Positions 11,812-30,915 of a stretch of DNA of 42,168 nt are shown here, piece after piece (within the stretch, counting starts at the first letter, position 1; each line of letters starts with the position of its first letter). Made by a program: the position numbers and the translations under genes. Under the pieces are notes generated by a model. It was not told the origin of the DNA, did not search any database, and saw only the letters and a program-made list of their open reading frames with translations. Source of the stretch: a virus; the IMG/VR virus record IMGVR_UViG_3300044733_001878, positions 1 to 42,168 of that record; one strand, given 5' to 3'.

Positions 11812-11918
11812 CAGGCTATCAACTACATTGTTTGTCTCTTATTACTTTCAAAAAATAAATGCAGGCTAACCAATTACGCACTATCCCACTCCCTTATTCC
11901 TAATCACATGCAGGCTAA
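11680..11918. repeat. Array of six TGCAGGC direct repeats, 41-50 base spacing
   Basis: TGCAGGC followed by TA or AA begins at 11680, 11721, 11767, 11810, 11860 and 11909; spacings are 41, 46, 43, 50 and 49. The last copy overlaps the terL stop codon. An outlying copy lies at 11434, and related CAGGCTA occurrences continue into terL (about 11991, 12018, 12161). The spacing is roughly four to five helical turns, like iterons or operator arrays. Confidence 0.7.
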
Positions 11919-15035: not shown

Positions 15036-15575
15036 CTATCCTTCCTGAGTTTGAGTAAATGTACTGGACTTTTGTATATTATCAGTAATTTGACCGGATT
15101 GCAAGGATAACTGGTCTAAAGGAATAGAAATTCCCCACATACTAGCTTGTTGAATAAGCTCTTGGTCACTCAGTGTCTGATAGGTGATTGTAGATTCAGA
15201 TTTTTTGGGTGCTTCTAATCCTAGTATCTTAATCTGCCTGTCTATGATAGAAAGCGCGGAGTGTAATGACTCCCTATTGCCCTCTTTAGCTTCTTTATAG
15301 TACACCTTTAGCAATTCATCGAATCTAGCTAATGTAAGCGATAGGGCCTTTTCAGCTACTACACTGCCCTCCTTCATCAGGCTCTTGAACTCCCTTTCCA
15401 CATACGAATAGGCAGCCTGCCTTGTCACACCCATTGCACGACCAATCTCCGCATATGTTAAGCCCTGTTTTCGCATGGCTATTGCTTCTAGTCTCCTTTC
15501 CTTCTTTATTATTTTGTGCTGTGACATCCTGTTCTTCTGTCCTGCATTGTTCTCGCCTGTGTTGTCCATTGACAT
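15036..15575 (-). CDS. Probable terminase small subunit, HTH protein (179 aa)
   Basis: Residues 28-65 form a clear helix-turn-helix (E-A-I-A-M-R-K-Q-G-L-T-Y-A-E-I-G-R-A-M-G-V-T-R-Q-A), followed by helices and I-L-G-L-E-A-P-K-K at 116-124, a signature seen in many phage small terminases that bind the packaging site. ATG 15575 has a strong AGGAGAAGG site six bases upstream. It lies 1.5 kb upstream of terL on the same strand, with the 88- and 110-residue genes between. A transcription regulator remains possible. Its first 224 bases are shared with the MazG-like frame. Confidence 0.65.
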   Translation of the reverse strand: MSMDNTGENNAGQKNRMSQHKIIKKERRLEAIAMRKQGLTYAEIGRAMGVTRQAAYSYVEREFKSLMKEGSVVAEKALSLTLARFDELLKVYYKEAKEGNRESLHSALSIIDRQIKILGLEAPKKSESTITYQTLSDQELIQQASMWGISIPLDQLSLQSGQITDNIQKSSTFTQTQEG

Positions 15576-18369: not shown

Positions 18370-20087
18370 AGTTCGGATCTTCCTTTCCAATTTAGGCGAG
18401 TATCTTGCCAGTTAGCTCCTTCTAAAAATTCAAACGCCCAAGACGCTTGTGTAGGGGCTAAATTGTTTTTAACTTGGCCTAGGATCCTATCCCCTGTGTC
18501 TTCATCTTGCAGCATGTATAAGCACACTCGTGCAGCAGCTACAACTGCAATGCTTCCTGAGCCCTTATACATCTTGTTAACCTGAGCACTAGATTTATTT
18601 AGGTGGCGTATAAGCAACACAGCACAACCTGTGCGTTCTGCCATCTTAGATAGCGGTGTTAATACCTGCCTAATGTTCTGGTCTTTATAGCTGTCGATAT
18701 CATCATCAAGGAACGCAAGGAATGGATCTAGCACAACTAACACAATTCCAAGCTGTTCAATAATGTGCTCCAACTGTGCTAACTTCTCTGGGAATGTAGG
18801 ATGGAAATCCCAAAAGTAAACTTTATCTAAGTCAGCACCAGCGGCACGCATCCTAGGAACTGTGATTCGCCCTGGGTCATCCTCTGCTGATAAGAACAAC
18901 ACAGAACCGCACACAGGTTTTTCTGTCTCGCCCGGAAACGGAGTACAGGTTGTTAGCCTCATAGCAATGTCAGCACATAGGGTAGATTTACCCAACGAAG
19001 GATCACCTTCAAGAACACACAACATGCCCTTAGGAATCCAACCCTTCCACACCCATTCCACAGGTACAGTCTTATAGCTGCTTGCAGGCCTAACACCTTC
19101 AACAGCCTTATTACCGGGTATCGCACTGTGTATAGTTATTTCCGATCCGGCTATAAGAGCATCATCAATGCCCTTATAAACCGGATCCCACATTTCTATG
19201 AATGTGGTGATTCCTTCAGATTTTAGAGCAAAAAACAACTCAGCTAACTGCGTCTTTACTGCGTCATTAGTCATCCAATCCATATCAAACGCAATAAAAA
19301 CTTCTGTACACTGGAGTGACCGGATAACCGGAAGTGCTGTTGACCAGTTAGATGTTCCGGGCACCCCAATACTCAGCGTAGTTTTATCTACGCAACAAGC
19401 TATATCAGCCTTAAGTATACCCTCAGTGATTCTAACTCTATCACGGTCTTGTGCTTGCCAAGGCACATGGCATGTGACCTTAGCTTGTGCGTCACCTGAC
19501 AGCCAAATGTATTTTGGATTACCCCCTGTAGCTATTTGAAAACCACGCACCCTTTGGTGTGTGTCAGTCACAGGTAATAGTATACCTTTAGTAGGTTTTA
19601 TTCTTGGGGCTTGATCTTGTTTCCTAGTGAACCCCGGCACAGATAGCAGGGATTCACCATACAACTCCGACAACTTAATAACACTGCGTCTAGTGGTGGG
19701 GTTTGACAAAGAGCGGTACCCGCCCAAAGTAATCCACTCCTCACTCAACCCCCGCACAACAAGTGCGTTACTATCACTAGACGACAGTTCGCTCAAATGA
19801 ATTAGGTCTTTATAGACTTCATGCCACAGATCATAATCTGGATCAGTGAAAAGGTCTTTCCATTCTAAATTTATGCTAGACATTATGTCTAGTATTTTGC
19901 AACCTGCGTGACAGTGTAGAAGTATTTGACCGTCACGCTCCCTAATAGTCAATGATGGTGAACTGTCATCGTGAGAGGGGCACAATGCTTTAAATTCACC
20001 ACCACTGGTGGTCACACCTTCAAGTAGATTCAATACCTTCTGAATTGAGGTATTTGTCATTCCATTTTTTTTGCTGATTAAAGACAT
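18366..20087 (-). CDS. Bifunctional primase-helicase (573 aa)
   Basis: The N-terminal zinc-binding domain has C36, H39, C59 and C63 (C-P-S-H...H-C-H-A-G-C). A TOPRIM-like primase core has E222 and the D-x-D pair 268/270. A RecA-type ATPase follows, with Walker A G-D-P-S-L-G-K-S-T at 361-369, Walker B V-V-L-D-P at 451-455 and R-H-L-N-K-S-S near 494-500, as in RepA-like hexameric helicases. It would unwind the fork and lay RNA primers for the polymerase two genes downstream. ATG 20060 is an alternative start; neither has an excellent ribosome site. The 5' end overlaps the preceding gene. Confidence 0.92.
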   Translation of the reverse strand: MSLISKKNGMTNTSIQKVLNLLEGVTTSGGEFKALCPSHDDSSPSLTIRERDGQILLHCHAGCKILDIMSSINLEWKDLFTDPDYDLWHEVYKDLIHLSELSSSDSNALVVRGLSEEWITLGGYRSLSNPTTRRSVIKLSELYGESLLSVPGFTRKQDQAPRIKPTKGILLPVTDTHQRVRGFQIATGGNPKYIWLSGDAQAKVTCHVPWQAQDRDRVRITEGILKADIACCVDKTTLSIGVPGTSNWSTALPVIRSLQCTEVFIAFDMDWMTNDAVKTQLAELFFALKSEGITTFIEMWDPVYKGIDDALIAGSEITIHSAIPGNKAVEGVRPASSYKTVPVEWVWKGWIPKGMLCVLEGDPSLGKSTLCADIAMRLTTCTPFPGETEKPVCGSVLFLSAEDDPGRITVPRMRAAGADLDKVYFWDFHPTFPEKLAQLEHIIEQLGIVLVVLDPFLAFLDDDIDSYKDQNIRQVLTPLSKMAERTGCAVLLIRHLNKSSAQVNKMYKGSGSIAVVAAARVCLYMLQDEDTGDRILGQVKNNLAPTQASWAFEFLEGANWQDTRLNWKGRSEL

Positions 20088-20388
20088 CTTCTATATCCCC
20101 CAAGTCGATTTTATAGCCTGATATCTTGTTACATTCCCTGGACAAATGTTCTGCTGTAAGTGATAAGGTGTGTGCTACATCCGCTATAGCTGCCCAATAG
20201 GCCGCGCCATTTACCAAAAACAAATCAGAAGATTTATCAATCTGTTTACCATTTTTAGTAAACTGCTTCACAAGAAGCTCAAACGCATCAATACTATCTG
20301 TCTGTACCTTCCGAACACGAGTACCCCACAAATTAAAGGCGTGCGAAAATATTCTAAATGCGTCTAGGTCAGCTTTAACTTTTTTCAT
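20020..20388 (-). CDS. Hypothetical protein in the replication operon (122 aa)
   Basis: ATG 20388 lies just beyond a hairpin at 20399-20422. The protein is helical, with F-S-H-A-F-N-L-W-G-T-R-V near the start and an aromatic stretch A-A-Y-W-A-A-I-A-D-V-A-H in the middle. No catalytic motif. It sits between the ssDNA-binding protein and the primase-helicase and overlaps the latter by up to 68 bases, so a replication accessory role (for example helicase loading) is plausible but unsupported by motif. Confidence 0.65.
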   Translation of the reverse strand: MKKVKADLDAFRIFSHAFNLWGTRVRKVQTDSIDAFELLVKQFTKNGKQIDKSSDLFLVNGAAYWAAIADVAHTLSLTAEHLSRECNKISGYKIDLGDIEDVFNQQKKWNDKYLNSEGIEST

Positions 20389-20398
20389 GTTTTGTATA

Positions 20399-20422
20399 GG
20401 GATCGCCTGTAAGAGCGATCCC
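20399..20422 (-). terminator. Intergenic hairpin inside the early operon
   Basis: GGGATCGC (20399-20406) and GCGATCCC (20415-20422) form a perfect 8-bp stem, with no U-run afterwards in the leftward direction (the sequence passes straight to the next gene's start). More likely an mRNA processing or stability element than a full terminator. Confidence 0.4.
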
Positions 20423-20440
20423 CCTCCAAAAGTAATAAAA

Positions 20441-21031
20441 TTAAAAAGGTGTTTGATATCCGCCCTTAGATCTAGCTACCTTGGCAGGTTGTTTAGTACT
20501 TGCCTGCGTAACTTTCTTAGCCGGAGCAACAACCACCGCTTCTTCTTCATCATTGTCATCCACATCGCTAGACTCCTCCTGAGTTAGTTTTCGTTGCTCT
20601 TCTCTGAACAACTTGGAAAAAACAGACAGCGTATCAGCAGGTAAAGGTTTAGCATTGTTTGTTGCGACAAACATACCCAGGCGTTCTCTCACAACACCAT
20701 TGTGATCTTCTGCGTGCTTACAAGAGATACGCACCTGAACACCAACTAGTCCTGCTGTGTCTTCGTTCTCCATACTTAGGCCTTTAATATCGTCCTTGGT
20801 GTACCCAAGGGAACGAATATTTTTTACGGTGTATGGAAGTGCTTTATCGGTCAACCACATTAGTATCTTTTTACGCACACCTTCGCAGTCAACATGTTGT
20901 TTATCTGAGTCTTTGCCATCACGCAAAACCACATCGAACACAACACATGGCGTACCCTTATCACCCAGGGCAGTTAGGTCATGGCCTTCAATCTGGCCAT
21001 TGTAATTTCCAACAGGTAACATATCTGACAT
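20441..21031 (-). CDS. DUF669-like single-strand DNA-binding protein (196 aa)
   Basis: Residues 5-125 have the beta-rich layout of DUF669/ssDNA-binding phage proteins: L-P-V-G-N-Y-N-G-Q-I-E-G then G-T-P-C-V-V-F-D-V-V-L-R-D-G, and a second strand pair around G-V-Q-V-R-I-S-C. An acidic linker (S-S-D-V-D-D-N-D-E-E-E) precedes a basic stretch and a terminal Y-Q-T-P-F, similar to partner-binding tails of single-strand binding proteins. GGGAG precedes ATG 21031. It lies next to recT, consistent with a joint role in annealing and replication. Confidence 0.75.
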   Translation of the reverse strand: MSDMLPVGNYNGQIEGHDLTALGDKGTPCVVFDVVLRDGKDSDKQHVDCEGVRKKILMWLTDKALPYTVKNIRSLGYTKDDIKGLSMENEDTAGLVGVQVRISCKHAEDHNGVVRERLGMFVATNNAKPLPADTLSVFSKLFREEQRKLTQEESSDVDDNDEEEAVVVAPAKKVTQASTKQPAKVARSKGGYQTPF

Positions 21032-21033
21032 GA

Positions 21034-21756
21034 TTACTCTCCCTTATAAGAATTAGCGAATTGAACAGCCCTTAAATACTCAGCCTCACTCATCGTTTCA
21101 AACGATTGAATGCCCAAATGTTTGCACATTTTTGAAATTTGAATACCTTGCTTGCTGCAACTTGTAAGAAGTTTGTAGCGATCATCCAAAGAAACTTCTG
21201 AGGACGGAGTATAAGATTTCTCCTGTTTTTCGTCCTCAAGTATGTCTTCTTCACAGAATGCACCCCCTAATTCTTCATGTGTATAGTAAGGAAACACAGT
21301 CAAGTCAGGGCAGTGCACCCGCGCTCCAGCCGTTATGCATCGTGCAAACAGCATACTTTTTGGATACTTCACCCACACCTCCTTTGTGTGTAATCCAGCT
21401 TTCTTGGCATCCTCCCATGTAAACTGGTGTACCCCAACCGCCTCCTTGTCTTCGTAAAAATCAACTGTACACTCTGTAGCAGTCAGATTTTTAACCCGGT
21501 AGTTATACCTAGGTCGTGATTTTTTAATCAGTGCTGCAATGAAGTTTGCAGAAAATGTGGGTGTGCCCTGGATTAGTTGTATAGCTTTCAATGATGCTGC
21601 CGCTCCTAATCCTAATTCCCTACCAACCTGTATTCGCACCATCGCACTAGCAGCATCTTTTACATCTTTGTAGATACCGGACTTTACAGCAGCTACAGCA
21701 AACCGCTCCATGTCTGACACACTGTTAAATGTGTCAGCAACAACAACATTACTCAT
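21034..21756 (-). CDS. recT: RecT-family single-strand annealing protein (240 aa)
   Basis: ATG 21756 (M-S-N-V-V) overlaps the preceding gene by 8 bases and follows GAGGAG; the frame opens at 21831 but the extra 25 residues are not RecT-like. The core shows R-I-Q-V-G-R-E-L-G-L-G, I-Q-L-I-Q-G-T-P-T-F-S-A-N-F-I-A-A-L-I near 60, Y-N-Y-R-V, F-T-W-E-D-A-K-K-A-G-L, and W-V-K-Y-P-K-S-M-L-F-A-R near 130, all typical of RecT. It coats and anneals complementary single strands. The expected exonuclease partner (YqaJ type) is not adjacent; it lies at 24817-25419 in another transcription unit. Confidence 0.9.
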   Translation of the reverse strand: MSNVVVADTFNSVSDMERFAVAAVKSGIYKDVKDAASAMVRIQVGRELGLGAAASLKAIQLIQGTPTFSANFIAALIKKSRPRYNYRVKNLTATECTVDFYEDKEAVGVHQFTWEDAKKAGLHTKEVWVKYPKSMLFARCITAGARVHCPDLTVFPYYTHEELGGAFCEEDILEDEKQEKSYTPSSEVSLDDRYKLLTSCSKQGIQISKMCKHLGIQSFETMSEAEYLRAVQFANSYKGE

Positions 21757-22105
21757 CAGATGACTCCTCGTTAGAGTTAGGTGGATCTCCAGCGGCGATA
21801 TATTCACAGCTAGAGTAATGAACAAACACAATTTGCATCTTGCCTATAGCTGCGCCGTCTGTGCGCGAGACATATAATGGATCGTCTAGTTTGACTAGGT
21901 ATCCCATTGAGGTTGATTCGCCGTAGTAGTATGGAAGTAAAGGGCTACAGATTAATCCATGTAAAACATTCTCAGGATCATTTTGTCCGTAGCCCCAGAC
22001 ATGCACCCTGGAGTACAAGGGATAGAACTCACAGGTATCTACAGGTTCCCTAGGCTCCTCCTTCCATTCACCAGTATCAGGTATAGTTTCTTTAATCTTC
22101 GACAT
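21749..22105 (-). CDS. Hypothetical early protein (118 aa)
   Basis: ATG 22105 shares a base with the TAA of the upstream gene and follows GGGAGAA. The middle is beta-rich and aromatic (Y-S-R-V-H-V-W-G-Y-G-Q, P-Y-Y-Y-G-E-S-T-S-M-G-Y-L-V-K-L) and suggests a small SH3-like barrel; both ends are acidic. Encoded directly before recT. No family recognised. Confidence 0.65.
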   Translation of the reverse strand: MSKIKETIPDTGEWKEEPREPVDTCEFYPLYSRVHVWGYGQNDPENVLHGLICSPLLPYYYGESTSMGYLVKLDDPLYVSRTDGAAIGKMQIVFVHYSSCEYIAAGDPPNSNEESSDE

Positions 22106-22281
22106 TAGTATTCTCCCATAAAGTAGTAAGGATCGTCACTGTTATCATCGTGCTCTGAGTCTTCTGAGGATGCCTCGAAAGCATCCTCAGCACTATCATC
22201 TTCATGTTGTTGGTATTCTCTAGGGTCTTCACCATGATCGTACTGATCTAGGTCGTAGTCATTCCAATCTGGACTAGACAT
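22105..22281 (-). CDS. Highly acidic small early protein (58 aa)
   Basis: Of three in-frame starts, ATG 22281 has the best spacing from the AGAGGAGA site; the 22287 ATG is too close to it. More than 40 percent of residues are Asp or Glu, with only a few basic ones, ending in Y-Y-F-M-G-E-Y. The composition resembles DNA-mimic or low-complexity early proteins, but no specific function can be assigned. Confidence 0.55.
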   Translation of the reverse strand: MSSPDWNDYDLDQYDHGEDPREYQQHEDDSAEDAFEASSEDSEHDDNSDDPYYFMGEY

Positions 22282-22630
22282 TGGCATTCTCCTCTGCGTA
22301 GATTTTTTCAATTAGTTCTGCAATCTTGCGATTACACTCTTGATCACACCATTCCAAAGACAGAATTGTTTCTTCAAACCAATTGCCAATGATCGGGGGG
22401 TACACTGTGTAGCCGTGCACCATTTTACAGTCGTATGTTTTGACTTGAATTTTAAGTTCTACATGCAGGTTAATTTTGGTTTGCGTAGACAACACTTTAA
22501 AGTTTCTAGCTTCACCCAACTTCATGAGCATGTGAAAGAAACGATCCCACTGAGTAACTTCCTTGTTATATAAGTCAAACTTTTCCATGCAGTGAACAAC
22601 ATAATCAGAAACATGATACTTTACTGACAT
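22274..22630 (-). CDS. Hypothetical protein, first gene of the early operon (118 aa)
   Basis: ATG 22630 follows GAGGGGAG; a TTG two codons upstream is less likely. Sequence includes V-H-C-M-E-K-F-D-L-Y-N-K, W-D-R-F-F-H-M-L-M-K-L-G and a C-terminal acidic helix. No motif recognised. As the promoter-proximal gene it would be made earliest after infection or induction. Confidence 0.65.
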   Translation of the reverse strand: MSVKYHVSDYVVHCMEKFDLYNKEVTQWDRFFHMLMKLGEARNFKVLSTQTKINLHVELKIQVKTYDCKMVHGYTVYPPIIGNWFEETILSLEWCDQECNRKIAELIEKIYAEENANV

Positions 22631-22686
22631 GACCAATCTCCCCTCAAAGATTTGTAACTGCGATCCACAGTAGATTGCATATATTC

Positions 22687-22715
22687 GTTCTACAATCTGC
22701 TAATGCAGACTGCAA
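22687..22715 (-). promoter_or_regulatory. Early leftward promoter with an operator-like dyad in its spacer
   Basis: Minus strand TTGCAG (22715-22710), a 17-base spacer and TAGAAC (22692-22687). The spacer contains TCTGC-TAAT-GCAGA (22696-22709), a perfect inverted repeat. A protein bound there would block RNA polymerase. The half-site TGCAGAC recurs at 22768-22774, in the -35 of the divergent promoter. Confidence 0.5.
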
Positions 22716-22766
22716 GCTCAGCTTAATAAAAATTCCAAAGTATTTTTTATATTTGCCGTAACTCAG

Positions 22767-22795
22767 TTGCAGACATGCCCTTAAATCCGTATAAT
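22767..22795 (+). promoter_or_regulatory. Strong sigma-70-like promoter of the RHH regulator
   Basis: TTGCAG (22767-22772), a 17-base spacer and consensus TATAAT (22790-22795) precede ATG 22836, with transcription from about 22802. AAAGGAG lies six bases before the ATG. It is the closest match to consensus in the window, as expected for a gene kept on in the lysogen. Confidence 0.7.
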
Positions 22796-22835
22796 ATTTT
22801 TAGGAAGTGCTGTTGGTCTAACAAAAGGAGTCGTA

Positions 22836-23033
22836 ATGGTTACTAAACCCGCCCCAGCGGAGGATGAACCCACAGAAACCACAACTGTGCGTGTTAATCG
22901 TAAAACTTTGAGGCTTATGCAGATCATAAGTGCGTGGAAAAATTGTACTCTTTGTGAGTATGTCGATCACCTGGTCCGCACACAGGGGCAAAAAGATATT
23001 GAAGAAATGAAAAAAGGAGTTTCAAATCTGTAG
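22836..23033 (+). CDS. Ribbon-helix-helix regulator, candidate lysogeny repressor (65 aa)
   Basis: An acidic/proline-rich N-terminus of 14 residues precedes T-T-V-R-V-N-R-K-T-L-R-L-M-Q-I-I-S-A and C-T-L-C-E-Y-V-D-H-L-V near 16-47, the beta-strand plus two-helix pattern of Arc/CopG-type DNA-binding proteins, with a positively charged strand. Such dimers bind short dyads. It is divergent from the early operon, next to the integrase, and no CI-like or Cro-like gene is present, so it is the best candidate for control of the lysis-lysogeny choice. Anti-repressor or excisionase roles are alternatives. Confidence 0.7.
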   Translation: MVTKPAPAEDEPTETTTVRVNRKTLRLMQIISAWKNCTLCEYVDHLVRTQGQKDIEEMKKGVSNL

Positions 23034-23048
23034 CTATAGCTAGTTTAG

Positions 23049-23086
23049 AGTATTAGTTATTTTCTTTTAAGAAAATAACTAATACT
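23049..23086. repeat. Perfect 18-bp inverted repeat between the regulator and attP
   Basis: AGTATTAGTTATTTTCTT (23049-23066), centre TT, then its exact complement (23069-23086). It begins 15 bases after the regulator's stop. Very AT-rich, without a following T-run, so a poor terminator; it could be a binding site for integrase accessory factors or the regulator. A smaller perfect dyad, TATACCT-CGA-AGGTATA, lies at 23157-23173. The remaining bases to 23234 are AT-rich with no gene. Confidence 0.6.
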
Positions 23087-23234
23087 TAGCTATATCTATA
23101 AGTAGATAAGTGTTAGTAGTATATATAGTATATAAAAGCAAATTGTATGCCAAACCTATACCTCGAAGGTATAAATTTAAAAAGTCATTACACTAAGTGT
23201 TTTTTTTCTTTCACTTTTCCCCTGCTTTTCTCTT

Positions 23235-23313
23235 TCCCTAGTAGCTCAGGGGATAGAGCATCGGTTTCCTAAATCGAGGGTCGCTGGTTCGATTCCAGCC
23301 GGGCGCACTAGGG
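23235..23313 (+). other. attP core derived from a tRNA-Arg(CCU) gene
   Basis: Bases 23242-23307 match a tRNA body: D-arm GCTC/GAGC, anticodon stem with loop TTCCTAA (anticodon CCT at 23268-23270), T-arm GCTGG/CCAGC with TTCGATT loop, 3' acceptor strand CGGGCGC and discriminator A, no encoded CCA. The first seven bases (TCCCTAG) do not pair with CGGGCGC, so it is not a functional tRNA. This is the usual attP form: recombination would restore the host gene's 3' end. Curiously CCCTAG (23236-23241) is the exact complement of CTAGGG (23308-23313) just after the tRNA end. The integrase gene starts three bases away. Confidence 0.75.
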
Positions 23314-23315
23314 TT

Positions 23316-24308
23316 TTAGGCTTTTTTCTTAGATGAAACTATACCCGCTGGGGTATAGAAAGCTGTTACAGAGTCATCTAAAACATAGTGATCGTAGATT
23401 TTTAAGGTTGTAGTTGGGCTTGTGTGACCTAGCCTAGCAGCTACCATGCGTACATCGCATACACCGAGTAAAAATGTTGCGTTTGTATGCCTTAAATCAT
23501 GTATCCGCAGTGGGGTACCAAACTTTTTAACTAATGGCGCCCACCATCTACGCAGGTTCCACCTGGATACTCTAAAACCCTCTGGTGAGGTAAAGATAGG
23601 TAGCTTGCTATCCTTAGGCCTTAATTGCGTCAAAATTTGATTTAAGTTGTCAGATAGAGTTACTTTCCGATTTCCTTTAGAAGTCTTAACCTGCGTTGTT
23701 TTAGAGGCCTTATTGTTTTGATTATAGGCCTTGTTAATTACTATCTTTCCGTTCTGAAAATCGCCCCAATTTAGCCCAAGTGCTTCACCTAGCCTGCAAC
23801 CTGTATCAAGCAAGAAAAGTAGTAGGGAATGATAGTGCGTAGGACTTGACAACTTTATTAACTTTGCTACCTCCTGTTGCGTTAAAGCGCGTCCAGGTTG
23901 ATGAATGTGTTTTGGTGTAATGTCGTAAGGTGGCACAACACCAGCTACCTTACACAAGGTAAGTAGTCGTTTAATAAGCCTATACGCCTTAGCTGTTGAA
24001 TACTTTTTGTTAATTATAGACGCAGTGAGTGATACTGTGTCTGTGGTTAATTGATCTGAAATAATGCATTCTTTTAAAGATGCAATTTCTTGTTTGTATC
24101 GCGCAAGGGATGTGTATCTTACATTTCTAGACTGTAAAAATTTATTCATGATGTCAGAAAAACTATGTACTTTTTCTGACACGGAGGTCTGAGGCATTAA
24201 AGCCTCAGCCTCCTCTCGTGTGCTGTGGTACGAGCGTCGTTTTTTACCTTTGTGGCTAGTTTGAAAAGCCCAAAGTTTATGTAATTTATCCCAAAATACT
24301 GTAGCCAT
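23316..24308 (-). CDS. int: Tyrosine recombinase (phage integrase, 330 aa)
   Basis: ATG 24308 (M-A-T-V-F-W) is preferred; the frame is open to 24401, but that extension overlaps the promoter. An N-terminal arm-binding-like part (W-A-F-Q-T-S-H-K-G-K-K-R) and a SAM-like core-binding domain (50-120) precede the catalytic domain: R172 (T-G-C-R-L-G-E-A-L), the beta-hairpin lysine near 208, H270-x2-R273 (R-I-H-D-L-R-H), H295 (L-G-H-T-S) and Tyr305 (K-I-Y-D-H-Y). All catalytic residues are intact. It should integrate the phage at the tRNA-Arg(CCU) gene through the adjacent attP. Confidence 0.95.
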   Translation of the reverse strand: MATVFWDKLHKLWAFQTSHKGKKRRSYHSTREEAEALMPQTSVSEKVHSFSDIMNKFLQSRNVRYTSLARYKQEIASLKECIISDQLTTDTVSLTASIINKKYSTAKAYRLIKRLLTLCKVAGVVPPYDITPKHIHQPGRALTQQEVAKLIKLSSPTHYHSLLLFLLDTGCRLGEALGLNWGDFQNGKIVINKAYNQNNKASKTTQVKTSKGNRKVTLSDNLNQILTQLRPKDSKLPIFTSPEGFRVSRWNLRRWWAPLVKKFGTPLRIHDLRHTNATFLLGVCDVRMVAARLGHTSPTTTLKIYDHYVLDDSVTAFYTPAGIVSSKKKA

Positions 24309-24314
24309 AAGTTG

Positions 24315-24344
24315 GCTATACAATAACCAGACTTTACGAGTCAA
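24315..24344 (-). promoter_or_regulatory. int promoter predicting a leaderless transcript
   Basis: Minus strand TTGACT (24344-24339), an 18-base spacer and TATAGC (24320-24315). The expected transcription start falls at about 24308, the A of the chosen ATG, and no Shine-Dalgarno site exists between. Confidence 0.45.
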
Positions 24345-24361
24345 GGTCAAAAACACCGTAT

Positions 24362-24391
24362 AGCAAATACCTATAAAAATAGGCTTTTGCT
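24362..24391. repeat. Fifth copy of the CCTAT/ATAGG dyad, upstream of int
   Basis: AGCAAATACCTAT, AAAA, then ATAGGCTTTTGCT. The core CCTAT-N4-ATAGG is the same as in the four copies at 11262-11811, with the outer arms changed to AGCAAA/TTTTGCT. It lies 18 bases upstream of the int -35 element. Confidence 0.6.
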
Positions 24392-24392
24392 G

Positions 24393-24422
24393 TTTGATCA
24401 CGAAACTAATTTCGTGATCAAA
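24393..24422 (-). terminator. Perfect 13-bp hairpin ending the late operon
   Basis: TTTGATCACGAAA, CTAA, TTTCGTGATCAAA begins immediately after the acetyltransferase stop. It lacks a U-run, so it may instead be a binding site: its CACGAAA/TTTCGTG arms are the same as the outer arms of the 11262-11811 dyads. Confidence 0.5.
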
Positions 24423-24857
24423 TTACATATCAAGACGCATAGTTGTACCGTTTACATAAAAGCCAAATGTTGAATAATACTTTTCTAAAGATGGTGCACA
24501 ATCTAATATTATTTTAAAACAACCCTTGTTGTGACAGTAGTTAATTGCATGTCGCATTAATTGCCTGCCTATGCCTTTACTTCTCCAAGCTTCCGCAACA
24601 ATAAAGTCATCTACAAACGCATAGGGAAGTCTATAAATCATTTTATCTACTAAGTGCACTGTAATACTCCCTAATGGTTTTCCACAGTCACTGAAATATA
24701 AAAAAGTAGGACAGGTGCCAGTGAAGGCCCTGTCCAAGTAGCACCTTTTCATTTCCTCTAAAGTCGTAAACACAGGTGCGAATTCATTTAGAAGATCTAA
24801 GTAATGTTGGTCTAGATCATGTAGGTCGAGCCTTCTGATGTTCGAGTGATTGGACAA
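24423..24857 (-). CDS. GNAT acetyltransferase resembling glucosamine-6-phosphate N-acetyltransferase (144 aa)
   Basis: The acetyl-CoA binding motif is V-D-D-F-I-V-x4-R-S-K-G-I-G-R-Q-L-M at about 82-101. After it comes G-C-F-K-I-I-L-D-C, then K-Y-Y-S-T-F-G-F, then a Met near the end, a layout like eukaryotic-type GNA1 (C-Y-K-V-I-L-D-C and F-Y-x-K-x-G-F). GNA1 acetylates glucosamine 6-phosphate on the way to UDP-GlcNAc. The start is TTG 24857, decided by AAAGGAG seven bases upstream; no in-frame ATG lies there. It overlaps the YqaJ gene by 41 bases and ends the late operon. Another small amine substrate is possible. Confidence 0.75.
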   Translation of the reverse strand: MSNHSNIRRLDLHDLDQHYLDLLNEFAPVFTTLEEMKRCYLDRAFTGTCPTFLYFSDCGKPLGSITVHLVDKMIYRLPYAFVDDFIVAEAWRSKGIGRQLMRHAINYCHNKGCFKIILDCAPSLEKYYSTFGFYVNGTTMRLDM

Positions 24858-25419
24858 ATGATAGCTCCTTTAAGAAGAGTTCTTTAATATATCCCTCGTT
24901 CGGACGCATCTCTACCAAGGCTAGCCTTTCATGTGGTTTAAACTTTTCAGCATCTGAGTAGGACACATAGTGTGCTACTTTTGCCCCAGTTACACCTAGT
25001 TGATGTTGTACTTGGGGGTAGTAATACTTCGGAATCCATCCTCTCAGAGCTTCTGAGTGTGCCCTGTCGTTAGGACATTTAATCTCTACAATCAATCGAC
25101 CATCCTTGGTAATACCGTCTAAGCTTGCCATAAACCAAGGGTAGGATTCGTGCTCTACGCAAGCTGGTTCCACCTTTAGTCCTGTCAGGTCTTCGTACAT
25201 TTCGCGCACAATAGGCTCTAGGCGCTTGCCTCTAGCCATTCGCTCGTTTTCGTACTGTTCGGATACTGTGCCTAGTTTTCTATCCCTTAGTTCGTCTGGT
25301 TTGCACCAAGGGTTAGAACCCATTAGTACAGCCGCATCAGAACCACCTACCCCTCCCTGTCTCCATTTCAACCATTCTGCACCGCTCTGATCTAGAGTCA
25401 CATACTTGCAATTCAACAT
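24817..25419 (-). CDS. YqaJ/lambda-type exonuclease (200 aa)
   Basis: ATG 25419 (M-L-N-C-K-Y) with a GAGGA site is preferred over 25464. Motifs of the YqaJ viral recombinase family: G-G-S-D-A-A-V-L-M-G at 25-34, E68 (K-R-L-E-P-I), A-S-L-D-G at 98-102, E-I-K-C-P at 112-116 and P-Q-V-Q-H-Q-L at 135-141. The enzyme degrades 5' ends to leave 3' single strands for RecT annealing. It is in the tail of the late operon, away from recT (21034-21756), with integrase and regulator between, an uncommon split of a usual pair. Confidence 0.9.
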   Translation of the reverse strand: MLNCKYVTLDQSGAEWLKWRQGGVGGSDAAVLMGSNPWCKPDELRDRKLGTVSEQYENERMARGKRLEPIVREMYEDLTGLKVEPACVEHESYPWFMASLDGITKDGRLIVEIKCPNDRAHSEALRGWIPKYYYPQVQHQLGVTGAKVAHYVSYSDAEKFKPHERLALVEMRPNEGYIKELFLKELSFVQSLEHQKARPT

Positions 25420-25567
25420 GCTTGTTGTCCTCAGTGTGATGTAGCGGTAGTTCCAGTTCTGCACGAATTTGCATTACCCTGATTTTCTCAGGTGAACCGG
25501 GTGGATATACCGTAGGCAGGTACGGGTCTATTGTACCATGCCAGTCATACACACGCCTAGACTGCAT
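25337..25567 (-). CDS. Small phage protein before the exonuclease (76 aa)
   Basis: ATG 25567 and ATG 25588 are both possible; neither has a strong ribosome site. It shows Y-P-P-G-S-P-E-K-I-R-V-M-Q-I-R-A-E-L-E-L-P-L-H-H, a pattern I recall from small conserved phage proteins of unknown function. The final 28 residues are translated from DNA shared with the exonuclease start and may be a neutral extension. Overlaps both neighbours. Confidence 0.55.
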   Translation of the reverse strand: MQSRRVYDWHGTIDPYLPTVYPPGSPEKIRVMQIRAELELPLHHTEDNKHVELQVCDSRSERCRMVEMETGRGRWF

Positions 25568-26276
25568 TGTTAAAATACCAAGATCCATCTTTACGCCTGC
25601 TCATTTTAACCTTGTTTTCTGAGGGTGGAATTAGAGAGTGTATATGTTCTGCAATAGCCTTAGCCACCTGAGGCCTTGTGCGTGATCTGTCTGTACCTCT
25701 TTGCGCGGATGGTGCTTCCTTGGGGTACACTTTTCCATTTTTACCACGGATCTGATTGTTCCAAAGACCATTGGCAGGCTTAGGCACAACTTGTGTAGGC
25801 TTTAATGGTGGCACATTGCGAGTGTGAAACATAGTCCTCTTAGACTCTTGCACACCGTGATGATATGGCTGTATAGAGAAGGTTGGTTTCTCACCTATTA
25901 TCTTCGCAGCGTGTCCGTGCATTACTGGGTTTTCTAACATCACCCTGGATGCGTGTGGTGTGTTCAATAGGCGTTTGAAATCTTCAGCATCTCTTTGCAT
26001 GTCTTGCATTCTAGTAGGGTAGGCTAGAGTACCGTCTGGTCTTTGCTGAGTTAGCCTGCTAACTGAACTGTTAGCCATGTTTGTGCAGGTAGGGTGACCT
26101 AGAAGTAAATCCCAATGGTGCTTACCATCTAGTAGATCCCAATAGTTGCCCTGGTAATGATTTGTCTGATCAACCTCGTTAGGTTTAAAATCAGCAGTGG
26201 TGACATGGTGTCCCAGCGCACGCAGGTGCGATGCAACACCATTACTACATTCACCAGCTATAAGTACTCTTCCCAT
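25557..26276 (-). CDS. Methyltransferase-like protein (239 aa)
   Basis: It starts with a Rossmann-like strand R-V-L-I-A-G-E-C-S-N-G-V-A, then V-T-T-A-D, W-D-L-L-L-G-H-P-T-C-T-N-M-A-N-S near 55-70 and V-M-L-E-N-P near 112-117. These match phage proteins annotated as DNA methyltransferase-like (an S-adenosylmethionine fold with a P-x-C motif and E-N-P in place of E-N-V). The typical C5 signature Q-x-R-x-R is not obvious, so chemistry is uncertain. It sits between the lysis genes and the exonuclease. The genome thus has two methyltransferase-type genes, on opposite strands. Confidence 0.7.
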   Translation of the reverse strand: MGRVLIAGECSNGVASHLRALGHHVTTADFKPNEVDQTNHYQGNYWDLLDGKHHWDLLLGHPTCTNMANSSVSRLTQQRPDGTLAYPTRMQDMQRDAEDFKRLLNTPHASRVMLENPVMHGHAAKIIGEKPTFSIQPYHHGVQESKRTMFHTRNVPPLKPTQVVPKPANGLWNNQIRGKNGKVYPKEAPSAQRGTDRSRTRPQVAKAIAEHIHSLIPPSENKVKMSRRKDGSWYFNNAV

Positions 26277-26278
26277 GC

Positions 26279-26434
26279 TTAGGCCACATTCTTTAGTGCG
26301 TTTCGCAGTCCATATGCAGCTAGTGCTGCTAAAAATGACTGATACGCCTGTTCAACATGACCTTCTGAGAGTTGGTATATTGCTAGTCCTATTAACCCAG
26401 CGCACGCAAGATATGTTTTGTATCCTTCAAACAT
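26279..26434 (-). CDS. Small membrane protein of the lysis region (51 aa)
   Basis: ATG 26434 follows a strong AAAGGAGG site and shares a base with the upstream TAA. The product begins M-F-E-G-Y-K-T-Y-L and has one or two short hydrophobic helices (A-G-L-I-G-L-A-I-Y and A-A-L-A-A-Y-G-L-R). Similar short proteins starting with this helix occur beside phage endolysins. Holin-like or lysis-accessory function is inferred. Confidence 0.7.
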   Translation of the reverse strand: MFEGYKTYLACAGLIGLAIYQLSEGHVEQAYQSFLAALAAYGLRNALKNVA

Positions 26435-26619
26435 TAAACACCTCCTTTTAGTTTTTTAAGTTCTTCTTCCACATCGATTTGTTTTGATTCTTTAGCCTTT
26501 TGTGCAATTAGCTTTCGCACAGCGTCTAAGATCGGATGGTCTTTAGGCCTACAAGTTTCCCGCGCAATCCAACCACCTGCAAATCCAGCTAATGCAATCG
26601 CAATAGTTAAAATGCTCAT
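26434..26619 (-). CDS. Small single-span membrane protein (61 aa)
   Basis: An N-terminal hydrophobic segment (residues 2-18, I-L-T-I-A-I-A-L-A-G-F-A-G-G-W) is followed by a charged helical tail rich in Lys and Glu, topology similar to holin-type or spanin-like proteins. ATG 26619 overlaps the previous gene's stop (ATGA). Part of five consecutive membrane-associated genes. Confidence 0.7.
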   Translation of the reverse strand: MSILTIAIALAGFAGGWIARETCRPKDHPILDAVRKLIAQKAKESKQIDVEEELKKLKGGV

Positions 26620-27359
26620 TGTTCATCACTCCTTCTGAAAAAAAATACAGCCAAAACAAGGGTTATAACGATAACAAACACCAACAGAGATCCTTCAAGA
26701 GTACCTCTGAGATCTGGATCACCCCCTCTCCTATAGTTAGGGTCTACCTTCCTTAGTGCTGCCGCCAAACCTACCGCGCCATCCTTGTAGTCGTTTTGTT
26801 TGTGTAGAACTGTGCCATCAGGAGATTGCACATAAATTGCAACTTCCCCAGTAAGTTCAAATCCAATATCTGCTACAGCCCAGTGACTAGGGGGATAGTC
26901 TTGAACCACAGTAAAACTTTTAAAATCACTAAGAGCTGGGTCATTAAATAGATCGTCTCGAACCCTTTTTCTAATTGCATCAGGCCCAATGACAGTGAGT
27001 CTTAAAAACTCACTGTCATCAGGTATGTCCTGTGTGCCCATTAGTGAAAGTGCACTTTCTTTAGTAATAGCCCTACCGTTGTGATAGTAGGATTCTGGCT
27101 TTCCTTTAAGCTCTGATAAATCAATTCCATAATTAAGAATCTTTTTTGTAGGAAATAGGTCTAAATATTTTTGAGGTACTGGCGTAGGCAGTGTAGATTC
27201 TTTAAATTCACCTTTTGAATCTATCTCTAGGTAAACTCGTTCTGGCACTTTAAACACACCTACCTGTAGATTGTCCTGGTATAGTGCCACCTGACGCGCA
27301 TCGTCAGTGGGAACCCAGCTAAAGTCTAAGAACATGAAAACAGCAAATAGTAAGTTCAT
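26616..27359 (-). CDS. Membrane-anchored protein of the lysis region (247 aa)
   Basis: ATG 27359 has AGGAG seven bases upstream; the longer frame to 27416 lacks one. It has an N-terminal hydrophobic segment (L-L-F-A-V-F-M-F-L), a soluble middle with W-A-V-A-D-I-G-F then Y-V-Q-S-P-D-G-T-V-L-H-K-Q-N-D-Y, and a C-terminal transmembrane helix (L-L-V-F-V-I-V-I-T-L-V-L) followed by R-R. The middle resembles a conserved, possibly thioredoxin-like domain of environmental phages, recalled from memory. Likely periplasmic with membrane anchors; role in lysis inferred from neighbours only. Confidence 0.7.
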   Translation of the reverse strand: MNLLFAVFMFLDFSWVPTDDARQVALYQDNLQVGVFKVPERVYLEIDSKGEFKESTLPTPVPQKYLDLFPTKKILNYGIDLSELKGKPESYYHNGRAITKESALSLMGTQDIPDDSEFLRLTVIGPDAIRKRVRDDLFNDPALSDFKSFTVVQDYPPSHWAVADIGFELTGEVAIYVQSPDGTVLHKQNDYKDGAVGLAAALRKVDPNYRRGGDPDLRGTLEGSLLVFVIVITLVLAVFFFRRSDEQ

Positions 27360-27367
27360 ACTAGCTC

Positions 27368-28129
27368 CTAGTGTGGTACAGGTGGTGGGGGTGGTGCGAG
27401 CCATACAAAGGCCCAACCGTTACTATCATTAGTCCATCGAGTTTTAAATTCTTCTGGAGTCATCCATATTAGTTCCCCCGCAGTGCCGTTATTATCCCAA
27501 ATGCAAGCCCATTTATCATCTAGGTGAGCCAAACACACCATGTGGGCGATTGTGCCAGAATATCGCACTTTATCGCGCCCTGAGTAGGTCACAGCAGGGA
27601 ACCTACCTGTCTTAAGTGCTAGTTTAAGCAGGTCTAGTTCTTTACCCTCGTATTGCACATATTCAGGTGTGCTAATCTTTTGTGCCTGAGAGTACTCTTT
27701 TAGCTGCTTATCGACTTTAGAGGGGTATCCTCCACCTGGCTTATTGGCACACCAGTTTCTTAGGCCACGCACCTGCTCTAGATTCTGCCATCTGCCTGCC
27801 ATTTCTATAGAAGACATTACACACATACCCGCACCATCCACATGAGATCCAATATTGCTAATGTGCTGTGTTAAAGGGTAGTCAATCTGTAGTGGTGTTG
27901 AACCGTCAGGCGCGATAGAACCGCCTAGAGTAATAGACTCAACTGAGCCTTCTAGGTCTGTGCCCCAGGGCCTTTTAGGCTTAGGTTCGTCTGGTTTAAT
28001 TGGTACTGGTGTTGGTGCTACTTTTGGCTTAAGCAGTGGAATAGGGTCAAACTTCATTCGTCCAAAATATACTTCGTTGGCTGTGATAAGCCCAACAGCT
28101 AAAATTAGCATTCCTATCACTTTATTCAT
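27368..28129 (-). CDS. Secreted papain-like cysteine peptidase, candidate endolysin (253 aa)
   Basis: Hydrophobic signal-anchor at 4-17, a Pro/Lys-rich linker (34-53), then a papain-like fold: Cys103 in D-G-A-G-M-C-V-M-S-S, His196 in T-I-A-H-M-V-C-L, and Asn213/214 in W-D-N-N, giving a Cys-His-Asn triad. It ends in a polyproline tail. ATG 28129 overlaps the upstream stop (ATGA). No muramidase or amidase is present elsewhere, so this may be the cell-wall peptidase for lysis; an alternative is processing of a host or virion protein. Surrounded by small membrane proteins. Confidence 0.75.
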   Translation of the reverse strand: MNKVIGMLILAVGLITANEVYFGRMKFDPIPLLKPKVAPTPVPIKPDEPKPKRPWGTDLEGSVESITLGGSIAPDGSTPLQIDYPLTQHISNIGSHVDGAGMCVMSSIEMAGRWQNLEQVRGLRNWCANKPGGGYPSKVDKQLKEYSQAQKISTPEYVQYEGKELDLLKLALKTGRFPAVTYSGRDKVRYSGTIAHMVCLAHLDDKWACIWDNNGTAGELIWMTPEEFKTRWTNDSNGWAFVWLAPPPPPVPH

Positions 28130-28290
28130 GATGCTCTCCTGTTAGTTAAGAGGAACAACACAAAGAACGCAACGCCCCCCATAGTCACACCGTCCTTAAA
28201 ACCCCACCAATATATTCTATCAATAGTCCACTTTAAAGGTAGTAAAATATCCTCTAAAAGTTCAATTGGGGGTAAGTCTTGTGGGGTCAT
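28126..28290 (-). CDS. Small membrane protein, holin candidate (54 aa)
   Basis: ATG 28290 has GGAG six bases upstream and its TGA overlaps the peptidase ATG. It encodes an amphipathic acidic N-terminus (P-P-I-E-L-L-E-D-I-L), W-W-G-F, then a transmembrane helix (V-A-F-F-V-L-F-L-L) and a terminal N-R-R-A-S. Size, topology and coupling directly ahead of the secreted peptidase fit a class III-like or accessory holin. Confidence 0.65.
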   Translation of the reverse strand: MTPQDLPPIELLEDILLPLKWTIDRIYWWGFKDGVTMGGVAFFVLFLLTNRRAS

Positions 28291-28645
28291 ATTCGCTCCA
28301 TTTCCCTAAGGGGCATTTTTCAGTAATCCAGCTAGTTTTAGGTTTTAAAAAACAGCCACAAACTCCGCATTTTTCGTCTTTTTTAAATTCACAGTTTGCA
28401 CATATATGAAGCCTATCTTCATGCACTTCTAAAGGTACTCTTTTGCACCCTGAGAAACCCCAACTTGTAACAGAGGATATTAAAGAGCTAGCTTGTTCTA
28501 ACATAGGTGGAACTTGTATTGGCTCGTCATTATCCCAAGCTGCCCTTACCCTTGTGTTATGGTGGTAATGCCAACAAAGTTGGCACTGTGTGTTATCCCA
28601 AGTGCTATTAGGAATTACATTATTACATGTGCAAGGTCTTGACAT
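28262..28645 (-). CDS. Cys-rich, zinc-ribbon-like protein (127 aa)
   Basis: Thirteen cysteines, many in pairs: C-x-C-x(13)-C-x2-C with His near the N-terminus, and C-x2-C-x(6)-C-x-V-C-x-C near 83-96, followed by C-P-L-G-K-W at 113-118. The C-terminal block resembles small metal-binding phage proteins with this ending. ATG 28645 shares a base with the preceding stop (TAATG). It lies between fibre genes and the lysis cluster. Structural zinc binding is likely; the partner is unknown. Confidence 0.75.
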   Translation of the reverse strand: MSRPCTCNNVIPNSTWDNTQCQLCWHYHHNTRVRAAWDNDEPIQVPPMLEQASSLISSVTSWGFSGCKRVPLEVHEDRLHICANCEFKKDEKCGVCGCFLKPKTSWITEKCPLGKWSEYDPTRLTPN

Positions 28646-30915
28646 TAGCTACATGCTCCTACTGTAATTGTTGGTGCAGGGGCAGTACCATTACCATAAA
28701 CAATCCATCCAGTTAAAGGTAGTGTAGTAGAACTACCGGATGCGTAATAACCAACATCAGAACTATAAAAAACCCATTCGCTGTATTCGCTATCAAAATA
28801 AATTGCTATAGAAGGGCTTCCTGTTTTTTGATAATTTCCGTTATCTAAGATTTCATATGTGCCGTTGTAAGTTGTAGTGCCAGCACCTGCCACGCAAACA
28901 TTATTTAGGTAGGTGTAAAGTGTATTAGCAGGATTTGTACCATTTGGTGTGGTAACTAAAACGCTTGCATTTCCAGTAGTTCCGGCCGGAGTCTTGGCGG
29001 TAATGGTAGTTGCATTAACCACAGTAACATTAGTTGCAGCAACACCCCCAATAGTAACAGAAGTTGCCCCAGTAAATTTAAATCCTGTTATTGTTATTGA
29101 CCTATTGCCAGCAATAGAACCACTAGTAGGGCTAACAGATGTAACAAAAGGTGCAGTTGTACAATCACCGCCAGTTATTGTTGGTGCTGGGGATGCACCA
29201 GAAATAACACTCCAAGTTGCTAGAATTGGATTCAATTGGTAATTATTTCCACCATAAAGAGTAGAATTCCCACTTATGAGCCTAAATCTGTCGCTGTCGT
29301 AATCATAATAAAAATATGTAGTAGGGCTTCCAACTTTTTCCCACCCACCAGAATTAAAACCAATGCTTGCATTATAAGTATAAACTCCATTTGCTGCTGA
29401 AGTACCTGCACCAGAAACGCAACGAGGGTCTATTAAAGTTACCGGAGTTTCGTAAGTAAACAATGTGTTAGCTGCATTAGTACCACCTGAAGTTGTAACT
29501 AACACACTTGCAGTTCCAGCAGTTTTAGCTGCTGTAGTTGCTGTAATACTTGTTGAGCTAACAACAACAAGATTAGTAACTGCAACACCACCTATAGTTA
29601 CAGCAGTTGCACCTGTTAAATTAGTTCCAGTTATTGTTACACTTGTTCCACCTGCCGTAGTGCCTGTGGTTGGTGAAATTGATGTGACCGTTGGCGTAGG
29701 TGTTGGGGTTGGAGTAGGTGTGGGTGTTGGAGACATACAATACCTGTGCCATGCGTAGCTGTTCCAATACCATGCTCTACCTGCAAAGCTGTAAATGTCG
29801 TTTGTTGCTTTTGTAGTTGGGAAAAAGAATGGGCCTGTGTTTGTGTTTGCTGGTGCTAAACATGGGCTTAGTGTTGATGTTGGAGTTGGACTAGGTGTTG
29901 GTGTAGGTGTAGGAGTTGGTGTAGGTGATGTACAAGATCCTGAAACTATTGTTGGGGCTGGTGCATGACTACTATTTACCACATTCCAACCAGTAAGTGG
30001 GGGAGTAGCAGAATTTCCAAAATTAACATGTGAGTATGAGTTTCCACCTCCACTTATATTATTATAAATAAGCCAACCCCCGCCACTCGACCGAGCAATT
30101 CTTAAATTAGTTTGTCCAACTTTTTCAAACTCTACTGTCGCCCCAGATGATGGGGTTATTCTAACATATGTTCCATTGAACCAATTTGCCCCAGCACCAG
30201 AAACACAATAATTATTTGCAATGCACTCTGTGTGGTATAGCGTAGGTGTTCCTGTGCCATACGCTGCTGTCCACCCTGTAAGAGGTACCGCACTCTGCTG
30301 CCCTGTGGTGTTGCTATATAACCAAAAATTACCTTCTTTTATAACCCACCTAGAGGCATCCCATTCTATTGTAATATTAGGATCAGCTAAGTTTTCGTAA
30401 ACTCCATTATTTAAAGTGTACGATCCGTTAGCTCTACTCGCACCAGCATCACTGACGCAATAATTATCTCCTTGTAATGCAAGTGTTGGCTCTACAATAA
30501 CGGTAAAGAATAATATTGTGGATGGCCCTCGAAACTCTACAATGTATGTTCCTGCTGGGGTTGAATTAAAATTTAGTGTGTAGTCTGTGCTGCCCTCGTT
30601 GCAGTCTAGCTCTATGAAATCAAATAAAAAGTATCGAGTTGAATCTTCTGGCCCGCCCCCTAAAGCAAATGCAAAAGTTCCGTCATTATAGCCGTGGCCA
30701 GATATTGGGCTTCCTGTTATTCCATAACTGCTAGCGTTAGTAGGTGCTGGACCTTGATGAGTTTGTTGAAAGTTTGTACTTCTTATATTAACAACACTTA
30801 TACCTCTTATATAAAAATTTAAAGATTTATTTGGGGCACTACGAACTTTTACAGATGTATCAGATACTTGCGTACCTCTAGCGTCTTTATATACAGCATC
30901 GTAAAAACAAGTCAT
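28645..30915 (-). CDS. Modular adhesin: four lectin-like modules plus two TIG/IPT domains (756 aa)
   Basis: An N-terminal 130-residue beta domain is followed by four related modules (about 150-230, 232-325, 492-590, 673-756), each beginning C-V-x-G-A-G or similar, N-G-x-Y, and ending L-T-G-W...A-P-A-P-T-I...C. Two TIG/IPT immunoglobulin-like domains (412-490 and 592-672) carry V-T-S-I-S-P-T-T-G and V-T-I-x-G. Two T-P linkers (near 330-350 and 400-412) separate blocks. This is a receptor-binding or surface-adhesion fibre by architecture. The modules recall a repeat known from algal and environmental proteins; sugar binding is an inference. Confidence 0.8.
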   Translation of the reverse strand: MTCFYDAVYKDARGTQVSDTSVKVRSAPNKSLNFYIRGISVVNIRSTNFQQTHQGPAPTNASSYGITGSPISGHGYNDGTFAFALGGGPEDSTRYFLFDFIELDCNEGSTDYTLNFNSTPAGTYIVEFRGPSTILFFTVIVEPTLALQGDNYCVSDAGASRANGSYTLNNGVYENLADPNITIEWDASRWVIKEGNFWLYSNTTGQQSAVPLTGWTAAYGTGTPTLYHTECIANNYCVSGAGANWFNGTYVRITPSSGATVEFEKVGQTNLRIARSSGGGWLIYNNISGGGNSYSHVNFGNSATPPLTGWNVVNSSHAPAPTIVSGSCTSPTPTPTPTPTPSPTPTSTLSPCLAPANTNTGPFFFPTTKATNDIYSFAGRAWYWNSYAWHRYCMSPTPTPTPTPTPTPTVTSISPTTGTTAGGTSVTITGTNLTGATAVTIGGVAVTNLVVVSSTSITATTAAKTAGTASVLVTTSGGTNAANTLFTYETPVTLIDPRCVSGAGTSAANGVYTYNASIGFNSGGWEKVGSPTTYFYYDYDSDRFRLISGNSTLYGGNNYQLNPILATWSVISGASPAPTITGGDCTTAPFVTSVSPTSGSIAGNRSITITGFKFTGATSVTIGGVAATNVTVVNATTITAKTPAGTTGNASVLVTTPNGTNPANTLYTYLNNVCVAGAGTTTYNGTYEILDNGNYQKTGSPSIAIYFDSEYSEWVFYSSDVGYYASGSSTTLPLTGWIVYGNGTAPAPTITVGACS
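29690..29930. repeat. Two GGTGTWGG-type microsatellite tracts encoding T-P linkers
   Basis: Tracts at about 29690-29735 and 29876-29930 consist of near-tandem hexamers of TGGTGT/AGGTGT type and encode alternating Thr-Pro in the adhesin. They can change length by slippage in steps of two residues without a frameshift. Confidence 0.7.

Follow-up and report, generated by a model that had tools for sequence, protein, structure and literature searches.

The DNA considered here, the window, is a virus record of 42,168 bases (G000) whose genes include an integrase, RecT/RecE, a primase-helicase, polymerase A, a portal, a large terminase (terL) and tail genes. Between positions 22687 and 22795 lie two putative promoters that point away from each other. 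The leftward one would serve an early operon. The rightward one would serve the gene for a 65-residue protein with an RHH-like predicted fold, beyond which are an inverted repeat, a sigma-54-like element, a copy of a tRNA gene and the integrase. The features on which the argument turns are these.

12579–12585, plus strand: TGCAGAC copy within terL, the third in the window, conserved at GGT CTG codons
15036–15575, minus strand: conserved HTH protein, 179 residues (HTH_23, E 4.3e-7)
21034–21831, minus strand: RecT-like annealing protein of the early operon (phrog_561, E 3.3e-21)
22274–22636, minus strand: open reading frame of 120 residues that opens the leftward early operon
22687–22715, minus strand: putative early promoter (TTGCAG at 22715–22710, 17 bp, TAGAAC at 22692–22687)
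22696–22709: dyad TCTGC-TAAT-GCAGA (TCTGCTAATGCAGA), its right arm within the proximal operator, its left arm not conserved
22705–22715, minus strand: candidate proximal operator, TTGCAGTCTGC on that strand, core GTCTGC/GCAGAC at 22705–22710, overlapping the early -35
22767–22795, plus strand: putative RHH promoter (TTGCAG at 22767–22772, 17 bp, TATAAT at 22790–22795)
22769–22775, plus strand: candidate distal operator GCAGACA, core GCAGAC at 22769–22774, 64 bp away from the proximal one and overlapping the RHH promoter's -35
22836–23033, plus strand: gene for the 65-residue RHH protein, the proposed repressor, with low dN/dS and an RHH-like predicted fold
23049–23086: long, perfect inverted repeat, rich in A+T, downstream of the RHH gene (18-base arms)
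23138–23152, minus strand: sigma-54-like -24/-12 element, TGGCAYRNNNNTTGC/T, between att and the 3' end of the RHH gene
23235–23306, plus strand: attP-like copy of tRNA-Arg(CCT), adjoining the integrase gene
23316–24401, minus strand: tyrosine integrase (PF00589, E 4.6e-19; phrog_1)

The initial annotation saw in these 109 bases a regulator promoter and an early promoter, with a dyad in the spacer of the early one and a half-site of that dyad recurring in the -35 of the other. Both are where it placed them: TCTGCTAATGCAGA occupies 22696–22709, between the leftward TTGCAG and TAGAAC, and TGCAGAC recurs at 22768–22774, inside the rightward TTGCAG. Neither promoter appears in a sigma-70 scan of the window, since TTGCAG shares only three of six positions with TTGACA.

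The phage group and its probable host

Among 50,697 phage records there was no near match for positions 20000–30000 of the window, and no protein match for terL or the RHH protein. The relatives that we compared fall into five groups. Group A is the window itself and G001, about 90% identical to each other, with RHH proteins 100% identical. G001 has 49,476 bases and a 127-base terminal repeat, and because it is the longer of the two and carries that repeat, the window is probably incomplete. Group B comprises G002, G003 and G009 (RHH 56–58%, primase 68–69%). Group C comprises G004–G008 and L019 (primase 83–84%), in which the GNAT–E1 interval holds neither the RHH gene nor the integrase; one of its members, G008, is probably a complete genome, judging from a 127-base terminal repeat of its own. 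Group D is L248/L249, the same as G013/G014, where G013 is a fragment overlapping G014 (RHH 58%, RecT 64% and primase 63–66% identical). Group E is a single 6.4-kb fragment, L250 or G015 (RHH 44%). Searched again for the RHH protein at an E limit of 10, G004–G008 gave no match, and no further RHH loci came from a second RHH scan or from a last viral scan with RecE. Since group B is the outgroup by primase identity, we infer by parsimony, without a tree, that group C lost a cassette of RHH gene and integrase.

The clue to the host is the tRNA copy beside the integrase gene. An exact match of 39 bases occurs in three Planctomycetota MAGs only (genome_contigs searched) and, compared by eye, about 71 bases (23241–23311) are identical to a tRNA gene of UBA969, a planctomycete MAG. 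From this match the host is probably a freshwater planctomycete. Group D is seen as an integrated prophage, in which the RHH gene is followed by the 3' part of tRNA-Arg and then by bacterial genes (L248, 4511–4551 onward), named by eye as a MoxR-like ATPase and a VWA protein. Of the 392 Planctomycetota genomes sampled, the one with the closest VWA protein is again the UBA969 MAG, at 41%. No prophage of this phage type was found in those 392 genomes or in 95 from the host's family, which is a weak negative.

Two boxes are conserved, the dyad is not

Taken in the window alone, neither the dyad nor its half-site goes beyond chance. Of random 109-base segments of the window, 54% contain some perfect 5-bp dyad whose loop is 3–8 long (15% with a loop of exactly 4), and TGCAGAC is rarer than expected in the window as a whole, with 3 copies observed against 5.15. 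It was the comparison with related phages, proposed in the initial annotation, that separated the two. The dyad as such is kept in only 2 of 11 records, the window and G001, and given that and its chance rate we rejected the whole dyad as an operator. The half-site is a different matter: GCAGAC occurs twice, exactly 64 bp apart, in all 11 records. These were aligned from the distal box, and in 200 bases no run of four or more columns is invariant except TGTCTGC and TTGCAGTCTGC. Invariant columns number 17 of 17 in the boxes and 15 of 53 in the spacer (Fisher p 7e-8, to be read as a guide only, the 11 records being related and several near-identical). In the relatives the early -10 reads TAGATT or TAAATT, at the same distance within one base.

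Group D widens the comparison. It too has GCAGAC twice between the RHH gene and the early operon, here 53 bp apart, which is 11 bp, or about one helical turn, shorter than 64, and its distal box again lies inside the TTGCAG of the RHH promoter. The boxes are thus kept in three diverged groups that carry the RHH gene (A, B and D). The early -35 of group D reads TTGCGT, yet GTCTGC is retained; in the RHH-less records the distal TTGCAG has become TAGCAG and there is no RHH promoter, and GCAGACA is still retained. Because GCAGAC stays where the -35 has changed, in groups C and D, what is conserved, on the evidence of these alignments, is the box and not the -35 hexamer.

Both boxes are also present, at 64 bp, in the RHH-less G004–G008 and L019. 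We could not use this as proof of selection without the RHH protein: there are only 4 variable columns between the boxes in these records, so group C cannot separate selection from recent loss. Group E has no GCAGAC upstream, and instead a TAGTG-GTAA-CACTA dyad. In viral contigs at large the spaced box pair is found in at least 119 stretches; among the matches listed, 20 loci have the 64-bp spacing, 12 of them from this phage group and 8 with unrelated flanks that look like chance.

The first gene of the early operon (22274–22636) was a candidate reader of the boxes. Group B (G002-type; L009, 9322–9743) is without it and keeps both boxes, and we therefore rejected it.

The 65-residue protein

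The substitution rates of the RHH gene give a low dN/dS (dN 0.000 and dS 0.100 against L003; dN 0.33 and dS 2.7 against G002). The gene goes with the lysogeny part of the genome, being present or absent together with the integrase in ten of ten records compared: both are in the window, G001, G002, G003 and G009, and neither is in G004–G008. The fragment G013 has the RHH gene and no integrase match, and the overlapping G014 has both.

What sort of protein is it? Members of the RHH (MetJ/Arc) superfamily have a beta-strand followed by two helices and are obligate dimers in which the strand reads DNA; the short ones often miss curated models. Ours had no hit in Pfam up to E 0.5, none in NCBIfam, and nothing significant or credible among PDB sequences. 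A model from three sequences was poor (pLDDT 61.9). One from five sequences (mean pLDDT 72.6) has helices at residues 22–34 and 39–63, with the strand region unformed in the monomer. Foldseek pairs it mainly with RHH proteins (Arc, KacA, AtaR, ParG and CopG), all at E of 0.25 or above, and VIA-align again finds mainly RHH proteins, with Z up to 6.3, a middling value. By hhalign it matches, at 93%, an antitoxin-like protein encoded beside a PemK/MazF-family toxin gene; this was its only profile match, and the antitoxin-like protein itself has a weak RHH_10 match. We conclude, at moderate model confidence, that the protein is predicted to have an RHH-like fold. In planctomycete genomes it is matched in 2 of 392 sampled and in 0 of 95 from the host's family, and the one match whose neighbour was checked adjoins a PemK/MazF-family toxin gene.

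Arc supplies a hint about DNA reading. Aligning by eye at the strand–helix boundary, we take its reading residues Q9/N11/R13 to correspond to T15/T17/R19 of the 65-residue protein. These three are identical in groups A, B and D and are P/N/Q in group E, which is without the GCAGAC box, although this is one contrast only.

Avoidance of GCAGAC and a third copy

In the pooled window, G002 and G014, GCAGAC occurs 11 times, 6 operator copies included, against 60.3 expected under an order-2 model and 45.2 under a maximal-order model, which ranks it 4 and 2, respectively, for depletion among 2016 non-palindromic hexamers. Minus the operator copies there are 5 against 45–60 expected, and the ranks are 2 and 1 of 2016, a comparison that favours GCAGAC in that its operator copies alone were removed. 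Depletion in a single genome is milder (4 in the window against 11–15 expected, rank 21–38). The RHH-less group C is less depleted: without operators, G004 has 4 against 17–20 and G008 has 7 against 19–23. Set against the pooled RHH-bearing genomes, G008 (7 against 19.2) differs with a one-sided p of 0.04, or 0.01 minus the terL copy, on few counts. A control of 66 distant viral loci (785 kb) holds 486 GCAGAC against 462–497 expected, which is no avoidance. The 48 kb of group D phage DNA contain 4 copies, the two boxes included, while 9.6 kb of host DNA on its flank have 3.

One copy outside the control region has persisted. The TGCAGAC in terL lies at GGT CTG CAT/CAC, in the same orientation, in seven of seven genomes aligned by codon. 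When four diverged terL representatives are compared, both codons are unchanged in only 8 of the 237 two-codon windows whose residues are invariant (Leu 3 of 38, Gly 5 of 32). This hints, weakly, that the terL copy is a candidate remote site.

Two other short sequences are scarce in these phages. ACGT is absent from the 42 kb of the window and from G004–G009; it occurs once in each of G002 and G003, 27 times in G001 and 83–90 times in group D. The strong avoidance is perhaps due to a restriction enzyme. CTGCAG, too, is absent from the window.

Neighbouring elements

The initial annotation also pointed to TGCAGGC repeats near 11.8 kb, which differ from the half-site by one base, and thought that one protein might see both. 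The repeats are a true cluster. The window has 13 where 5.5 would be expected, a number reached in 0 of 100 shuffles, with 8 in 600 bases at 11434–12114, a non-coding stretch beside terL. Defining a cluster as at least five TGCAGGC in 600 bases, we find it in the window, G001 and G014, which have the RHH gene, and in G004, G006 and G008, which do not; TGCAGGC is wholly absent from two further RHH-bearing records, G002 (51 kb) and the 23-kb fragment G009. On these grounds we rejected the idea of a shared reader, with the reservation that the array region may lie outside the fragments G005, G007 and G009. In G002, GCAGGC is absent and is the most depleted hexamer.

Downstream of the RHH gene, the inverted repeat is found in groups A, B, D (L248, about 4258–4315) and E and persists in group C, conserved as a structure and not as a sequence. 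The element at 23138–23152, which resembles the sigma-54 consensus, points at the early operon and is antisense to the RHH gene. It sits in the same place in G001, G002, G009 and groups C, D and E, as an exact TGGCACGN4TTGC in C and D, with GT for GC in G002 and as CGGCA in E. All three candidate host MAGs carry Sigma54_DBD.

There remains the matter of other regulators. The HTH protein at 15036–15575 is found at 68–96% identity in groups A–D, the RHH-less phages included, which is every group that could be searched; it also matches terminase-small-subunit and RNase E-like PHROGs, and is possibly a terminase small subunit or a regulator. The scan for a CI/Cro-like gene covered 41 of 46 presumed genes of the window (all but five from the structural region) and 10 ORFs from the part of G001 that the window lacks, and found none. 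The neighbour of the control region being RHH-like, the suggestion of a switch different from CI/Cro stands within that set of ORFs.

A proposed lysogeny switch and its rivals

We consider it fairly probable that these 109 bases control an RHH lysogeny switch, one that represses the early operon and its own gene. The RHH protein is the probable reader of GCAGAC because its gene keeps company with the integrase, because the boxes are kept in three diverged groups and because the motif is avoided elsewhere. The position of the boxes, at both putative -35 hexamers of promoters that are themselves predicted, is that of a regulator like F55, to which we return below. Dimers of the 65-residue protein would bind both GCAGAC boxes. 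At one box this would block the -35 of the leftward early promoter, which serves an operon that includes the RecT, primase and polymerase genes, and at the other the -35 from which the protein itself would be transcribed. Since spacings of 64 bp, and of 53 bp in group D, place both boxes on the same side of the helix, two bound dimers would probably cooperate, via a small loop or by spreading. RNA polymerase would be excluded from both promoters, leaving the early genes off and the repressor self-limited, and a lysogen at tRNA-Arg(CCT) would be maintained and immune to superinfection. What was computed is the boxes, their spacing, the co-occurrence of RHH gene and integrase, the RHH-like predicted fold and the avoidance of the motif; from these we infer binding, repression, looping and immunity.

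Counting against the RHH protein as reader are the RHH-less group C, which keeps both boxes, and the shared HTH protein, which could be what binds them; the failure to match curated models and the middling fold scores weigh on the same side. A phage protein common to all groups, such as that one, might then read the boxes as an early/late regulator while the RHH protein does something else. We think this unlikely, if deserving of attention: the HTH protein is present where the RHH gene is not, yet in A, B and D the distal box falls in the -35 of the RHH promoter, the avoidance of GCAGAC is weaker where the RHH gene was lost, and the HTH protein has its other PHROG matches to answer for. It is rather unlikely that the boxes are parts of promoters, with TTGCAG as an unusual -35, or sites for a host regulator, no phage repressor being involved. 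In groups A and B both promoters do have TTGCAG followed, after 16–18 bp, by a -10-like hexamer, and the boxes do persist without the RHH gene; the altered hexamers, TTGCGT in group D, which keeps GTCTGC, and TAGCAG in RHH-less records, which have no RHH promoter and still have GCAGACA, argue otherwise, and a -35 role needs neither a fixed 64 bp nor avoidance across the genome.

The avoidance itself might have another cause. If a host restriction enzyme made the phages shun GCAGAC and the boxes survived for other reasons, the depletion would be uninformative about a repressor. Other motifs are indeed avoided in these phages, ACGT being absent or nearly so in all genomes of groups A–C except G001, and GCAGGC being absent from G002. 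Group D, however, does not avoid ACGT (90 copies) and still has so few GCAGAC in its phage DNA, with three in the short stretch of host DNA beside it, and we regard this explanation as unlikely too. Least probable, to the point of being very doubtful, is a role for the RHH protein as the integrase's recombination directionality factor. Its gene adjoins attP and is present with the integrase, and Apl of phage 186 is reported to be both excisionase and regulator; the boxes, however, are about 470–540 bases from attP, at the divergent promoters, and there is no GCAGAC near attP itself, where such a factor might still use sites of another kind.

The lysogeny switch that we favour has a more ambitious version, which we offer as a long shot. 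It would be a one-protein RHH immunity system of an undescribed planctomycete phage family, with two phased boxes, a synonymously conserved terL site some 10–12 kb away and nearly all other copies purged. The switch would be tripped by a host sigma-54 promoter reading from the att side through the long hairpin, antisense to the repressor, so that host physiology and not SOS would decide induction.

Precedents and significance

Lambda CI and Cro are HTH proteins, two that oppose each other, with three palindromic operators per region. Like lambda, the present locus has divergent repressor and early promoters around a common operator region; unlike lambda, an HTH repressor pair and three palindromic operators were not found here. 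In P22, Arc and Mnt belong to a secondary immunity region that exists alongside a CI-like repressor. They are RHH repressors of a temperate tailed phage, and Arc folds are among the closest matches of our model, but unlike P22 no second repressor was found here in the same 41 of 46 window and 10 G001 ORFs. The plasmid repressors Omega and CopG are RHH dimers that read short direct or inverted boxes and regulate themselves, and short boxes with autoregulation are what we propose; unlike the present case, theirs is the control of plasmid copy or partition, with no integrase.

The nearest precedent in role, by analogy, is F55 of SSV1, a dimeric RHH protein reported to occupy tandemly repeated sites in the early promoters and in the promoter of its own gene, and to sustain the carrier state (PMC5569661, PMC9608457). 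Both would be very small single RHH proteins of integrating viruses with sites at early and own promoters, and holding the lysogenic (carrier) state, as F55 does, is the role proposed here. F55 differs in that its virus and promoters are archaeal and its sites are tandem ATAGATAG, with no evident sequence link to the 65-residue protein; here there are direct GCAGAC boxes, one per promoter, in a tailed phage with bacterial promoters. The minimal switch with a single RHH protein, as first suggested, keeps its probable regulator, and it has precedents in F55 and in Arc and Mnt.

Lysogeny control in planctomycete phages seems little studied: in the titles and opening lines of abstracts that we searched, there was no study of it or of this phage group. 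Avoidance of an operator hexamer across a genome could reveal the specificity of a repressor from sequence alone. One set of phages offers natural replicas of the switch (groups A, B and D), its loss in nature (group C) and a change of specificity (group E), so that RHH–DNA recognition, and whether a second regulator is needed, can be tested directly.
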